Assembly (NCBI GenBank): GCA_016840465.1 | Contig: JAEOSH010000017.1 | Span: 1-37,505 of the forward strand | Reading direction: 5' to 3' | DNA from: Candidatus Baldrarchaeum yapensis | Lineage (GTDB): Archaea > Asgardarchaeota > Baldrarchaeia > Baldrarchaeales > Baldrarchaeaceae | Length of the DNA stretch: 37,505 nucleotides | Shown: in pieces, positions 25,246-35,195 of the stretch | Layout: each line of letters starts with the position of its first letter | Position numbering within the stretch: the stretch's first letter is position 1 | Made by a program: the position numbers and the translations under genes | The notes under the pieces: generated by a model | Seen by the model: only the letters and a program-made list of their open reading frames with translations | Databases searched by the model: none | What the model was told of the DNA's origin: nothing

Positions 25246-26177
25246 ATGATGCTAAAGAACGTAATATTAATAACAATTGATTGCTTGAGACCCGATCATT
25301 TGAACTGCTACGGATATAAGCGTATAACGTCTCCGTTTATAAGTTCATTAGCGCGAACCGGCTGGATTTTCACAAATTTCTTTGCAAACTCTTCTTACAC
25401 GTGTGCATCAATAGCCTCAATGATCACCAGCACATATCCCTTTGACTACGGCGAGTACCTCGAGTTCTCCACACCCGCAAGATTGTCTAAAAAGAGACTA
25501 TTATTATCAGAAGTTTTGAAAAAGTACGGCTACTCAACGGCATTCTTTCACGATAACCCGTACTTATCACCAATATTCGGCTACAACAGGGGATTTGATG
25601 TTTGTATAGACTTTGGAAGAAAGGTGCTCAGTAGCATTAGATCCAAAAGAAGATTCCTCAATTTAATGTTCAAAAATAAGAAGATACAAGATCTGCTCTG
25701 GAAGATAAAGGATTTCGTCCTTCTGATAGATTGGTTCATACGAGGAAAACCTATACGGACCGATGCCGAAACAATATTGCGAGAAGCTTATAAGTGGTCA
25801 CGGAAGGCTAGCCGACCCTTCTTCCTCTGGATGCACCTCATGGATACTCACATACCGTATTCACCCAAGCATGAGGTGCTCAAACAATTCGGTATAAGCA
25901 AGCTCAGAGCCGCCATGATACTGTACAAACAGATATTCAGGAAGAATATTTCAAAAGAAGAAGTACGTCTGGTAAAACTATTATACGACTCTCAGATATA
26001 TCAAATCGACCAGGCATTGGCAAAATATCTGCCTAAGATGGTCAATCACGACTTCGAAGATACTTACATAATAATTACAGCAGATCACGGAGAAGAGTTC
26101 TTCGAAAACGGAAGAATAGGGCACTCAGGCGTCTTAACTGATACGCTACTACGCGTGCCACTGATAATATGTGGTGG
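25246..26177 (+). pseudogene. Sulfatase-family gene, 5' part, cut by an IS607-type element
   Basis: About 310 codons of an alkaline-phosphatase-fold sulfatase: VILITIDCLRPDHLNCYGY with the metal Asp pair and the nucleophile region at NSSYTCASIASMITSTYPF, WMHLMDTHIPYSP, and ITADHGEEFFENGRIGHSGV. The frame runs into the transposon after IICGG and stops 28 bp later in element sequence. The missing C-terminal codons lie at 28026-28211 and continue the family pattern. This ancestor was about 372 residues; it may have acted on sulfate or phosphate esters, perhaps of glycans or membrane phosphoglycerol. The truncated protein lacks the end of the fold and is probably inactive. Confidence 0.85.
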
Positions 26178-28027
26178 GCTGAAACGTATAGTGTTGCATT
26201 CGTAGCATTTAAGTACTTTTGTTGCATCAGATGATGTGATGACAAAATTATATAGAACTGGGAAGGTTGCGGAGATTCTTGGAGTAAATAGAGTTACGGT
26301 AATTAGGTGGATTAAGCAAGGTAAGATTAAAGCGGTGAGAGTTGGTAAAGAGTATAGGATTCCAGAAGATGAAGTGAAAAGATTACTTAAAGGTAAGGTT
26401 ATTAATACAGCGGTTATTTATGCTCGTGTGAGTTCTTCAGACCAAAGGAGCGATTTGGAGAGGCAAGTTGAATATCTTAAGGAGTATTGCACAGCTAGAG
26501 GATACAATGTAGTTGGTATTCTAGCAGATATTGCTTCTGGATTAAATGAAAAGCGAAGAGGTTTGAAAAAGCTGTTTGAATACGTTGTAAACGGAAAGGT
26601 TGACGTTGTAGTAATCAGCTACAAGGATAGACTTACGAGATTTGGGTTCAGGTATTTAGAAGAGTTCTTCAACTCACATGGAGTTAGAATTGAAGTCGTT
26701 TTCGGAGAAGAACCTAAGGATTTACAGCAAGAGCTAATTGAAGACTTAATTGCCATTGTAACATCATTTGCTGGTCGATTATACGGAATGAGAAGTCATA
26801 AAAAGAAGAAGGTGGTAGAGAGTGTCAAGCAAGCGATCAGAGACTGTTAAACTCACGGCAAGGTTCAAACTCGATGGTGAAGTAGATGAGAGACTGTTCG
26901 AAACGTACAAACGGATTGTCAATGAATTGTTGGATTACGCTCATTCCAAAGGAATTACCTCGTTCAAGAGACTGAAGTCCGAAAAATATCACGAGTTGAG
27001 GCAAGAGTACCCCGAATTGCCGTCTCATTACATTTACACGGCGTGCCAGATGGCTTGCTCCATCTATAAGTCGTTTAGAAAGCTTAAAAGAAAGGGAAAG
27101 ACAAAATCCGAAAAACCATTACTAAGGAAAGATGTAATTATGCTTGATGACCACCTGTTTAAGCTAGACTTGGAAAAATGGAAAGTCAGAATTTCTGTTC
27201 CCGATGGAAAATTGGAGTTTAAGCTTTTGCATGGAGAGTATCACGAGAGATTTAAGGACTGGAAGGTCGGTCAGGCATGGCTGGTCAGAAAGCCTGACGG
27301 AGTTTATCTGAACGTAGTATTCTCAAAGAATGTCGAGATGCTACATTGTGTGGATGTCATAGGTGTTGACGTGAACGAAAACAACATTACTGTTGCGACC
27401 AATCGGGGCTTTGTGAACTTTGGGACGAGAGAAAGGGTAATTAGAACCGCTTACTTCCTGAAGAGAAGGAGAATCCAAACCAAGATTAAGAGCAAGAGGG
27501 TTAAAGCTAGGATTTTGGCAAAATATCGTGATAGGGAAAGAAACAGGGTTCTGGACATTTACCATAAAGTTGCTAATGAAATTGTCAGATTGGCATTAAA
27601 AATGAGGTCTGCAATAGCCCTAGAAAGTCTCAAAGAAATAAGGAGTAGGATAAACTACTCAAAGGAGCTGAACGGAAGGTTGCATAGATGGAGTTTCAGG
27701 AGATTTCAACAAATATTGGAGTACAAGGCTAAACTCAATGGTATTGCGGTTATTTATGTCGATCCTCACAAAACCTCCCGCCTCTGCCCGATATGTGGGA
27801 GGAAGCTAAGCCCGAATGGGCGGAGGCGGTTGAAGTGCGAATGCGGGCTGGTTGCTGATAGAGATGTCATCGGTAGTTGGAATATCAGATTGAGAGGTTT
27901 GAGATCTTTAAAGATAGATGTGGGGAGCACCGTTCCCCCCGAAAGCCCGTCGATGAACCCCGAGACGGGAAGACTCTCCGCTACACATGCATCAAAAGTT
28001 GTGAAAGTAGCGGAGAGTCAGAACGGG
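26178..28027 (+). mobile_element. IS607-type insertion element (tnpA-tnpB)
   Basis: About 1850 bp inserted in the sulfatase gene. The ends were placed by rejoining the host frame: left codons ...TGT GGT GG and right GG T TTA AAG CAC AAA GTG ATC GAC give CGGLKHKVID, so the crossover sits in a GG pair present at 26176-26177 and 28026-28027. Insertion at GG without a longer duplication fits IS607-family serine transposases. It carries a MerR-HTH/serine recombinase and an overlapping tnpB, plus a structured right end. Both genes look intact, so the element may be recent and mobile. Confidence 0.85.
26239..26850 (+). CDS. tnpA: IS607-type serine transposase TnpA
   Basis: 203 residues from ATG 26239. 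N-terminal MerR-like helix-turn-helix (YRTGKVAEILGVNRVTVIRWIKQGKIKAVRVG) followed by a resolvase catalytic domain: VIYARVSSSDQRSDLERQ with the nucleophile Ser, [32 protein letters not shown]607 enzymes use this small resolvase to excise and join through a circular intermediate at a 2-bp core. It overlaps tnpB by 29 bp, the same overlap as in the second element. A closely related fragment lies at 35003-35195. Confidence 0.93.
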   Translation: MTKLYRTGKVAEILGVNRVTVIRWIKQGKIKAVRVGKEYRIPEDEVKRLLKGKVINTAVIYARVSSSDQRSDLERQVEYLKEYCTARGYNVVGILADIASGLNEKRRGLKKLFEYVVNGKVDVVVISYKDRLTRFGFRYLEEFFNSHGVRIEVVFGEEPKDLQQELIEDLIAIVTSFAGRLYGMRSHKKKKVVESVKQAIRDC

Positions 28028-28132
28028 TTTAAAGCACAAAGTGATCGACATAAAGGCATCCCTAATAGACCTTGCACCCACAATATTGGATCTTCTCGGA
28101 TTGAAAATTCCACGCCGCTTCAAAGGAACTAG
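26822..28132 (+). CDS. tnpB: TnpB RNA-guided nuclease of the IS607-type element
   Basis: 436 codons. RuvC motifs are complete: IGVDVNENNITVA (Asp183), AIALESLKEIRS (Glu268) and GLVADRDVIGSWNIRL (Asp348), with a zinc ribbon at CPICG and CECG (Cys322, 325, 339, 341). TnpB uses an RNA made from its own 3' end to cut DNA where the element has been lost. The GTG start overlaps tnpA by 29 bp. Codon 402 reaches the element's right end, so the last 34 residues (from about FKAQSDRHKG) are host sulfatase sequence read in another frame; the native protein probably ended with similar read-out elsewhere. Confidence 0.92.
   Translation: MSSKRSETVKLTARFKLDGEVDERLFETYKRIVNELLDYAHSKGITSFKRLKSEKYHELRQEYPELPSHYIYTACQMACSIYKSFRKLKRKGKTKSEKPLLRKDVIMLDDHLFKLDLEKWKVRISVPDGKLEFKLLHGEYHERFKDWKVGQAWLVRKPDGVYLNVVFSKNVEMLHCVDVIGVDVNENNITVATNRGFVNFGTRERVIRTAYFLKRRRIQTKIKSKRVKARILAKYRDRERNRVLDIYHKVANEIVRLALKMRSAIALESLKEIRSRINYSKELNGRLHRWSFRRFQQILEYKAKLNGIAVIYVDPHKTSRLCPICGRKLSPNGRRRLKCECGLVADRDVIGSWNIRLRGLRSLKIDVGSTVPPESPSMNPETGRLSATHASKVVKVAESQNGFKAQSDRHKGIPNRPCTHNIGSSRIENSTPLQRN
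27900..28047 (+). ncRNA. Predicted omega (guide) RNA at the right end of the IS607-type element
   Basis: The 3' part of tnpB holds successive inverted repeats: GGGGA/TCCCC around 27921-27936, CCCGTC with GACGGG around 27944-27969, and a perfect 13-bp stem GACTCTCCGCTAC (27972-27984) with GTAGCGGAGAGTC (28007-28019). The last stem ends 8 nt before the element boundary. TnpB guide RNAs are made from exactly this place and carry the adjoining host DNA as guide, here beginning TTTAAAGCACAAAGTGATCG. Limits of the RNA are estimates; structure beyond simple base pairing was not computed. Confidence 0.6.
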
Positions 28133-28211
28133 CCTCTTAAGAAAGAAAAAATCGGATAAAGTAATAGCTCAGGGAATATTCCGTGGAGTGAGATACCAAA
28201 GAATAATCTAA
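28026..28211 (+). pseudogene. Sulfatase-family gene, 3' part beyond the insertion
   Basis: Frame GGT TTA AAG CAC AAA GTG ATC GAC continues LKHKVIDIKASLIDLAPTIL, then DLLGLKIPRRFKGTSLL, the classic end of sulfatases (DLxPTILDLxG...FxGxSL), and stops at 28209-28211. It joins in frame to the 5' part ending at 26177 once the transposon is removed. It is overlapped by the extended tnpB frame and has no start of its own. Confidence 0.85.
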
Positions 28212-31173: not shown

Positions 31174-31291
31174 ACGCATCAACCTCAACTCCCTCGGGGT
31201 TCATCGGGAGTAAATCATCGGTCTCGCCCCCTTTCGGGGTAACCCCTCTCCTTCTCAGGATTGGCTCGATTAATTCGAGCCAAACCTTCAT
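31133..31291 (-). pseudogene. Detached tnpB C-terminal tail
   Basis: A frame starting MKVWLELIEPILRRRGVTPK and continuing GGETDDLLPMNPEGVEVDAS to a stop at 31133-31135. The MNPEGVEVDA-type ending is typical of archaeal TnpB tails; the intact tnpB at 26822-28132 has SPSMNPETGRL at the same place. The present tnpB of this element stops after [13 protein letters not shown], 770 bp upstream, so the homing endonuclease gene now separates body from tail. The RGVT stretch occurs at both sides, so this is not a clean insertion but a rearranged or mixed end. Confidence 0.6.
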
Positions 31292-32081
31292 TGAAGGAGG
31301 AAAACCCCACATCGTTTGTCCCTCTTATACTCCACTTTTTAAGCCAATACTTAATAGTAGTTCTATGGACTCCAAGCTTTTTGGCAAGTTCATTCAAAGT
31401 TAACCCTTGTCTTAAATATTCAACAAGCCTATCCTTGTCTACAGCCCCTCTTCTATAAGGCTTTCTGATTACTTGCATATTACCAAGTAATTCTTGAAGC
31501 TTTTGTTTACGGGTCTTATTCTTCATGTAATTGATAACCTTTCTACCCAACCTTATTATGTCCCTTTTTCTATAGATGGAAAGAGCGAATTCTGCTCCAT
31601 TTTTGTGAACACATGGATGATAGTTATACTTAAGTAACTTGCATCTCATCTTCTCTAGCCATGTCTTATCGGTGTTTAATATTCGTATCTCGCCCTCCCC
31701 AGTTTTAATACGTTTGCGGAACCTTATATTTCCATCACCATCTATTGCTCCTGCTATGTATGCGTATAATTCCTCCTCATTTTCGGGTACACTTTTCTTT
31801 GAAGAAAGTAAGAACTCAAATGATGGGTCTAATATAGCGTATCTATAGCTCATCGGAAGTCCAGTCTTTTTGTCTATAGTGTCTGTAGAATTTACCTTAG
31901 TGTACTTACCAAAAACTTCTTCAAAAATCTCTAAAATCTCCTGTCAGGTACTTCCTACAATCACTTCAATTTGTTCTCCTAATCGTCTCACGAAAATGTC
32001 TGTAGCACAGAGCCCCATCATGTAAGCTCTTTCAACCATATCTGGTGGCGCTATCTTTTTTGTTATGTTACTTCTAGCCAT
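31215..32081 (-). pseudogene. LAGLIDADG homing endonuclease with an in-frame TGA
   Basis: From ATG 32081, preceded by GGAGGTG, the frame reads [40 protein letters not shown] (first LAGLIDADG helix) to IVGST, then a TGA at 31946-31944, and continues without frame change QEILEIFEEVFGKYTKVNST ... DPSFEFLL ... LYAYIAGAIDGDGNIRF (second LAGLIDADG helix) and a C-terminal helix-turn-helix LTLNELAKKLGVHRTTIKYW. Such enzymes cut long DNA sites to spread themselves. The stop may be a CGA-to-TGA change. The last 35 codons run through the tnpB-tail DNA in another frame. A 212-residue product from ATG 31853 would lack the first motif. Confidence 0.85.
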
Positions 32082-33220
32082 GTTACACCTCCTCTATCAA
32101 GTAACCTTTTCACGTATTTCCATGAATTTAGGCATGGTTTCATATCTTTCATCCTTAGGTATAAGTTTATAGAAGCATTCAACTGTCTGTTAATAATCAA
32201 CCTACACTTAATACATTCCAAAACCTGCCCCTTTCGGTGCTTCATTCTTCCACCACATCTGGAGCAGATTTTAGTTGAATTACGAGGATCTAACAACTTT
32301 ACATTAGCTTTATAACTCATTAGAGCTATTATCTGCTTCCAATTTTGTTTAGAAACAACTCTATTGTGTATTTTACATTTACCAAACATTCCCTGCTTTT
32401 CTAAGTTCTCAAATCCATGCTCGTAATCTTTGAACTCTTTAGCGAGCTTAGTTGTTAGCTTATGTAGAAAATCTTTAACTCTATTTCTGTATCTTTGAGA
32501 ATACTTCTGCATAAGCCTTTTAGCAGTTTTTGGCTTAGTTTTACTCAAGCTCTGGATTTTTCTTCTCTTGTTCTCATAAGTTATGTGTAAAGTGTATAGT
32601 GGTTTTAAGTTCACTCTAATCCATCCTCTATCGCAAAATCCGTCCATGCTAAGCAGATTTAGATCCCAAGCAATTTTCTTCTTTGGAGTATAATTAACGG
32701 GTTTTCTGAACGTTATAATTAACTCATTCTCCTTGAGTATTAACTCTCCTAAATCGCAACCTTCAACTCTTTTCCTGAACCAAGCTTTTGACAGGTCAAA
32801 TTCAAGATAAAGCTGACGAGGTCTTATCGTAATTACGATTTTCTCATCTCTGAATCTGTAAAGTGTTTCTTTTACTCTGACGAACTTCCTTTTTACTACA
32901 GGTTTATTTCTTCCCCTCTTTCCTTTGATGTAATTCCTCCTCCACGAGCTTAAAATTGAATAAGCAGTTTTTATTGCTGAATCTACGTAATGTGATGCGT
33001 AATTCCAATCTTTAAGCAATTGATTTCTTAAAGTTCTTTTAAATTCTTTAGATTTTGGAATTATTGGAATTAACCTATTTCTCTTCTTTTTCCATTCTAT
33101 GCTGTCCCAAATTATATCTATCGCTCTTTGTAGAAGATACCTGTAGCTACTTAAAAATTCGCTTATATCGTAGTCGTGTCTTACTTTGTAGCTAACAATC
33201 CTGTATGAGTTTCTTTGCAC
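32063..33220 (-). CDS. tnpB: TnpB-family protein with altered RuvC-III motif
   Basis: 385 residues, a different TnpB subgroup from that at 26822. Ruv[15 protein letters not shown] (Asp186), Ruv[11 protein letters not shown] (Glu271) and a zinc ribbon (Cys319, 322, 336, 339) are present. RuvC-III reads [17 protein letters not shown]: related archaeal proteins have DRQLNAS or DRDxNAA, so the acidic residue is Asn344 (with Gln346), which should weaken or abolish cutting. The C-terminus ends WLEVT where the homing endonuclease gene begins; the stop overlaps that gene by 19 bp, and the codons for RGGV supply its ribosome binding site. GTG start, overlapping tnpA by 29 bp. Confidence 0.88.
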
Positions 33221-33800
33221 CTTCTACCACCTTCTTATACTTGTGTGATCTCATTCCATACAACTTACCAGCAAAATGAGATATTATCGTGATTAAATCT
33301 TCGATTAGCTCTTCTTGTGGCGATTTTTCTTCTTTATTTATAACTACTATCTCTGTTCCGTAACTCTTGAAGAATTCCTCTAAAATCTTAAATCCAAATC
33401 TCGTTAACCTGTCTGGATACGCTATAACGACCTTAGAAACCTCCTTGTTCATAACCATTTTTAGCAGTTTTTGAAAATTCCTCCTATCTTCTTTCAACCC
33501 AGAACCTACATCTTTGAGAATTTCTATTTCCCATCCTCTTTCCTTCGCATAACGTCTTATTAGCTCTATTTGTCTCTCTAAATCATCCTTTTGAGTATGA
33601 GATGAAACCCTCGCATAACCCACTATCTTCCTTTCTTCGTGAATCCCTAAAATTCGCTTTATTTCTGATTCGGGAACTCTCCTCTTTCCACCTACAGTTC
33701 TGACACACCTAATCTTCCCTTCCTTATCCCACCTCTGAATAGTCTTAACGTGAACTCCAAGCAACTTAGATGCCTCTTTTAGTGTGTATAACTTTTCCAT
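33192..33800 (-). CDS. tnpA: IS607-type serine transposase TnpA of element 2
   Basis: 202 residues. MerR-like HTH ([20 protein letters not shown] then [18 protein letters not shown]) and resolvase domain with [20 protein letters not shown] (nucleophile Ser), [12 protein letters not shown] and [17 protein letters not shown]. It differs throughout from the TnpA at 26239, so the two elements are separate arrivals and not copies. The gene looks intact. It would catalyse excision and insertion of the whole element, including the homing endonuclease gene. Confidence 0.92.
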
Positions 33801-34935: not shown

Positions 34936-35002
34936 TCAACCCACCATTGTGAAAATTCTCCCACCCTCAATATAAAACTTGTAAATAGATCCATGCAACC
35001 CC

Positions 35003-35195
35003 CATGTTAATCTATCTTTGTAACTGACCACCACAACATCAACCTTTCCGCTTACAACATATTTAAATGGCTTTTTCAACCCTCTTCGCTTTTCATTCAA
35101 TCCAGAGGCTACATCTGTTAGATCATCAATAACATCGTGTCCTCTAGCTGAGCAGTACTCTTTAAAATATTCGGCTTGCCTACTAAATATTCAGG
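35003..35195 (-). pseudogene. Fragment of an IS607-type TnpA resolvase
   Basis: The minus-strand frame reads RQAEYFKEYCSARGHDVIDD, LTDVASGLNEKRRGLKKPFK, YVVSGKVDVVVVSYKDRLT without a stop, matching the middle of the TnpA at 26239-26850 (RQVEYLKEYCTARGYNVVGI ... VASGLNEKRRGLKKLFEYVV) at most positions. The HTH, catalytic Ser segment and the C-terminal third are missing. It marks a third IS607 insertion, long since deleted, between the vapBC pair and the ybaK-type gene. Confidence 0.85.

Follow-up and report, generated by a model that had tools for sequence, protein, structure and literature searches.

The IS607 family comprises transposons that move by exchanging a GG dinucleotide between element and target, with a preference for (G)GG targets and no target duplication (PMC6188088). 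In ISXfa1, the IS607 element of Xylella, the target-adjacent motif (TAM) is GGG, and the scaffold of the guide RNA extends to a fixed flanking nucleotide, after which the guide starts (PMC10711439). Archaeal genomes additionally carry short MITEs and PATEs whose movement relies on insertion sequences with a tnpB gene, Sulfolobus SMN1 with ISC1733 being one example (PMC3718332). Here we analyse a previously undescribed member of the IS607 family that lies in a window of 37,505 nt, the whole stretch of DNA under study, which corresponds to contig C96 of a 2.27-Mb, fragmented metagenome assembly of 100 contigs. The host appears to be a Baldrarchaeia-like Asgard archaeon, and the nearest relatives compared belong to the same order as the window genome.

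An IS607 element interrupts a sulfatase gene

The element encodes a serine transposase of the IS607 type, TnpA (26236..26850, +), in which an N-terminal helix-turn-helix (HTH) domain precedes the resolvase catalytic domain (Pfam HTH_17 and Resolvase). It scores 237 bits against the NCBIfam IS607 model NF033518 (cut-off 110), and its closest solved relative is the transposase of ISC1926 (PDB 6dgc, E 9e-61). The tnpA gene overlaps tnpB (26822..28132, +; Pfam TNB; NF040570), a member of the RNA-guided nuclease family whose frame stays open to the end of the element at 28026 and continues for 35 codons into host sequence. TnpB scores 162 bits against NF040570 guided_TnpB (cut-off 100), and alignment with two same-order relatives places all three RuvC residues (D/E/D) and the zinc-finger cysteines; on the family match and the complete RuvC residues it is a predicted guided nuclease. 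Together with the N-terminal HTH of tnpA, the element has the GG at both ends and the lack of a target duplication that mark the family. Three full-length tnpA genes occur in the source genome; these ends were found only around the one in the window.

The flanks belong to a single sulfatase gene. Its 5′ part (25246..26178, +) is an open reading frame that matches positions 1-271 of the Pfam Sulfatase profile (E 5.7e-36), shares 33–36% identity with homologues by tblastn and stays open to 26205, within the element. The 3′ part (28027..28211, +), recognized by homologue matches and by the Pfam coverage of the joined gene, has codons from 28029 and a TAA stop at 28209-28211, and its frame is offset by 2 modulo 3 from that of the 5′ part. 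With homologues as queries, tblastn followed sulfatase sequence to ~26170 in one frame and again across 28044-28139 in another, where the best match was 53% identical (E 4e-7). The interruption of the gene is real, and the earlier note's reading of an IS607 insertion in a sulfatase gene is borne out by the NF033518 match and by the sulfatase homology on both flanks. Sulfatase matches were present in 17 of 59 relatives at no more than 40% identity; the three same-order genomes gave no sulfatase match, and the wider contig collection yielded no relative. The intact orthologue that the earlier note had named as a check had no close representative in the collections searched, and these likewise gave no empty site for the window element.

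Copies and relatives define the crossover

The earlier note had taken the shared GG at each junction to fix the crossover. Both assembled junctions, GGTGGGCTG and AACGGGTTT, do contain GG, and the absence of a target duplication that it described holds, but each junction in fact reads GGG, which permits four GG-GG pairings. Alignment of the family selects one of them. At the right end, all 13 archaeal TnpB relatives, drawn from Archaeoglobales, Thermococcus, Thermoproteota, Bathyarchaeota and Asgard archaea, end in GAACGG, the next bases being A,T,T,T,G,T,C,A,T,C,T,A,A, and nearly all of ~14 copies in the source genome end in AACGG, again followed by a varying base (C, G, T, A, T, T, G, A, T, T...); over both sets the ending is AGAACGG with few exceptions. 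Because this base varies among copies and relatives, the G at 28027 is host DNA, and the right crossover core is the GG at 28025..28026 (+), the final two bases of the element. At the left end, source-genome copies with a readable junction have R-G-G before C[A/T]GAAACG, with G as the first base in most, reading GGG|CAGAAACG or AGG|CAGAAACG. As copies read AGG|CAG, the GG that immediately precedes C[A/T]GAAACG, at 26177-26178, is the left core. A core shifted by one base to either side was ruled out by the AGG on the left and the GN on the right of these copies.

The GGG at the left junction (26176..26178, +), whose last two G form the crossover core, is the probable target-adjacent motif of TnpB, judging from the source-genome copies and the GGG TAM of ISXfa1. 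The left end of the element (GGCTGAAACGTATAGTGTTGCA..., 26177..26235, +) is common to the source-genome copies, and a similar end lies upstream of tnpA in locus L128. In the window copy, GTTGCA occurs twice in the left end and the inverted repeat of the two ends is degenerate.

Removing the element GG by GG (26177-8 with 28025-6) takes out 1848 bp and leaves TGTGGTGGGGTTTAAAG, with TGTGGTG-GG-GTTTAAAG across the join, which translates as CGGV-stop. Exact removal fails to restore the sulfatase because 1848 is divisible by 3, whereas the frames of its two halves differ by 2 modulo 3. The earlier note had instead excised 26178-28027, pairing 26176-7 with 28026-7 over 1850 bp as the precise ends of the element. 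This excision does give CGG|LKHKVID as claimed, but it does not correspond to the ends chosen by the family alignment, and the CGGLKHK join requires two G fewer than the product of exact exchange. Recovering the frame requires a further insertion or deletion in the run of G, an error of assembly, or a crossover displaced by one base at each end.

Use of the outer GG on both sides, such that loss of 1850 bp would restore an intact sulfatase, would imply TGTGGTGGTTTAAAG as the empty site and AACGGG-CTGAAACG, with three G, as the circle junction, where the GG rule would give AACGG-CTGAAACG, with two. Such a pairing is available, given GGG at both junctions, and the 1850-bp join yields a sulfatase-like frame that covers the Pfam Sulfatase profile in full (1-300 of 301). 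We nevertheless regard this course of events as unlikely, since the base after AACGG varies in other copies, so that the dinucleotide there is usually not GG. Serine recombinases, moreover, cut at a fixed position relative to their bound ends. The joined protein also still falls short: it has 371 aa, homologues extend ~90 aa further at the C-terminus, and tblastn with these homologues found no remnant of the missing residues downstream. The normal sulfatase ending described in the earlier note is thus not supported.

The sulfatase gene may already have been shortened before insertion. Four events could account for the two-base frame discrepancy: an older frameshift, a later G-run insertion or deletion, an error of assembly, or displacement of the crossover. 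The first two, taken together, seem most likely to us, and the data do not tell them apart. A point against the overall account that we favour is that the frame of the 3′ part continues open over 60 codons, somewhat unexpected if the gene had died long ago.

At the window locus and in the copy on contig C89, we infer the target GG at the exchange site from the reading frame. The C89 copy interrupts an ATPase_2-type gene, and its removal by the same GG rule gives a 537-aa frame across the domain; among the other copies, C27, C28, C92, C69 and others were uninformative, C89 alone being clearly inside a long gene. Since one of three offsets works by chance, C89 supports the GG rule without proving it. 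The same copy bears on whether a sequencing or assembly error in a G run conceals an exact, frame-restoring insertion of 1848 bp, to which we give even less credence than to use of the outer GG: the assembly is fragmented into 100 contigs and both junctions contain short G runs, but C89, where the run has four G, fits the GG rule, and runs of three G are seldom miscalled with short reads.

A conserved RNA structure at the right end

A predicted omegaRNA (reRNA) scaffold of ~110 nt (27912..28026, +), identified by its fold (z -6.1) and by covariation, overlaps the 3′-terminal portion of the tnpB frame. The alignment comprises ten sequences, from the window element, two copies in the source genome and seven relatives. 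Its three helices contain 21 pairs, which were paired in 94.8% of cases; 8 of them had changed on both sides. The covariation score was 0.353 against 0.125 for shuffled alignments, with none of 500 shuffles reaching the observed value, and sliding the partners gave 0.04-0.11. The closing helix CCGUUC:GAACGG, formed by CCGTTC (27930..27935, +) and GAACGG (28021-28026), is invariant in the ten sequences and includes the crossover GG. Within it, fold and covariation place a terminal hairpin (27972..28019, +) with perfect 13-bp arms at 27972-27984 and 28007-28019, which vary widely between species and yet pair: GGTTAGCCGTAAT with GTTACGGCTAACC in L132, and GGCCTAGCGTGAC with GTGACGCTAGGCC in L137.

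Because the closing helix contains the crossover GG, the guide should start at 28027, which would make the host flank GTTTAAAGCACAAAGTGATC (28027..28046, +) the expected omegaRNA guide; its position follows the scaffold end and its length is taken from known TnpB guides. This placement accords with ISXfa1, whose motif is GGG and whose scaffold takes in the fixed flanking nucleotide (PMC10711439), and with the preference of IS607 for (G)GG targets (PMC6188088). The compensatory changes across several archaeal phyla give this archaeal IS607 TnpB group a defined scaffold and a defined guide start.

An RNA of a different kind would be at work if the element were an IStron, an IS607 transposon combined with a group I intron and spliced from the mRNA so that the gene still works. 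IStrons, which are of the IS607 type, have been found within genes (PMC4227781), but at the gathering threshold the whole window gave no Rfam match, group I introns included, and tnpA, tnpB and the RNA scaffold occupy the element, making this extremely improbable.

Mini-elements share both ends and the scaffold

The right 115 bp of the element recurs ~14 times in the source genome, and in most of these places the left 30-50 bp sits ~270 bp upstream. These are gene-free mini-elements of ~160-280 bp whose two ends and omegaRNA scaffold match those of the window element (G000 contigs C27, C28, C55, C89, C92, C11, C71, C82, C69, C39, C80, C57, C75, C1 and C76; loci L009-L024). Like MITEs, they have no coding genes, occur in several copies and share their ends with an autonomous partner in the genome. 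Averaging 91% identity, the copies consist of the left end, a TATA-like TTATAAAGG box that is invariant in ten aligned mini-copies, a stretch resembling the tnpB zinc finger, and the scaffold, and each faces different host sequence. In each of the C55 and C89 copies an 11-bp inverted repeat, TGTTGCATTCG, links one end to the other, whereas the longest match in 500 shuffles was 9.

Conservation is uniform along the mini-copies (mean ~0.94-0.95), and for this reason selection on the scaffold within the family cannot be shown. About half of the mini-copies, C71 among them, have a C-A mismatch at one position of the closing helix, given which not all of them need be functional guide RNAs. For empty sites, joined flanks searched in the source genome and the three same-order genomes matched occupied flanks only, the one exception being a distant match for the C28 right flank.

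Some copies have unusual surroundings. C76b, a candidate second full-length copy, was rejected, as a V4R-like gene lies between the left end and the mini-copy; in this locus (L021, G000 C76:21500-25700, at 992-2914) the V4R-domain-like gene, recognized by eye, has a solitary IS607 left end on one side and the mini-copy on the other, and it may be there by chance or as a passenger. At L019 and L020 (G000 C69 and C39), 26 bp of left flank are common and the right flanks differ, as would follow from an assembly join at the repeat or from recombination between copies. At L010 (G000 C28:3300-6000), the sequence to the right of the mini-copy comes from inside a short-chain dehydrogenase gene, with 81% DNA identity to G003 C299, and the left flank is unrelated, as after a rearrangement at the element.

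Other elements in the window

A second IS607 element lies at 32063-33800 (-). Its TnpB reaches 86 bits against the guided_TnpB cut-off of 100 and reads INRQLNA at RuvC-III, where its relatives in other Asgard genomes mostly have DRQLNA; these sequences suggest that a Q in place of the D found in most TnpBs is characteristic of the subfamily. Adjoining this element is an orphan ORF (31215-31853, -) with LAGLIDADG-like and helix-turn-helix matches. A further IS607 tnpA fragment (34942-35184, -) shares 60% protein identity, and in part 82% DNA identity, with the tnpA described above.

Discussion

We consider it very probable that an autonomous IS607-family transposon inserted at a (G)GG in the sulfatase gene, by a GG exchange whose exact reversal does not restore the frame, with guide-RNA-directed return and the spread of mini-copies. 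From GG core to GG core, the element would comprise 1848 bp plus the shared GG. For the transposition chemistry we infer that TnpA, acting as a serine recombinase, swapped the target GG with the GG of a circular element, which would account for the absence of a target duplication. The sulfatase would have been out of frame or shortened before insertion, or a G would later have been lost or gained in the junction run. The right-end RNA, a ~110-nt scaffold ending in GAACGG followed by host sequence from 28027, would then guide TnpB; if active, TnpB would cut the vacated site at GGG followed by GTTTAAAGC..., and repair from a copy would restore the element. The same TnpA probably spread the ~270-bp non-autonomous copies, mobilizing them in trans.

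This analysis corrects the ends of this IS607 element family and indicates that, where a junction sits in a G run, a restored reading frame does not by itself locate the crossover reliably. Tentatively, and with less confidence than we place in the insertion itself, we suggest that the mini-elements could be self-contained omegaRNA genes, each with its own TATA-like box, scaffold and insertion-site guide, so that one TnpB programmed in trans would protect each of them from loss. If true, this Asgard archaeon would harbour non-autonomous IS607 copies that home under RNA guidance. The mini-element family offers a way to test whether a single TnpB works in trans with many guide RNAs and thereby retains non-autonomous elements. 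Similar ideas exist for IS605-type elements. In a literature search conducted mostly outside subscription journals, we found no description of IS607 mini-elements that retain an omegaRNA.

With IS607, IS1535 and ISC1926, the window element shares a serine transposase with an N-terminal DNA-binding domain, the tnpA/tnpB overlap, GG at both ends, the lack of a target duplication and, probably, a GG target of the preferred (G)GG kind, but it differs in its end sequences, its Baldrarchaeia-like Asgard host and its family of mini-copies. The left GGG motif is the same as in ISXfa1, where a fixed G beyond the crossover lies inside the guide-RNA scaffold; the scaffold sequences differ, and in the window element, as read from sequence alone, the crossover GG itself is predicted to pair within the conserved CCGUUC:GAACGG helix. 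The mini-copies resemble archaeal MITEs and PATEs as short non-autonomous derivatives, for which mobilization in trans is known, but those of the window genome derive from an IS607 element and keep a covarying omegaRNA scaffold at their right end.
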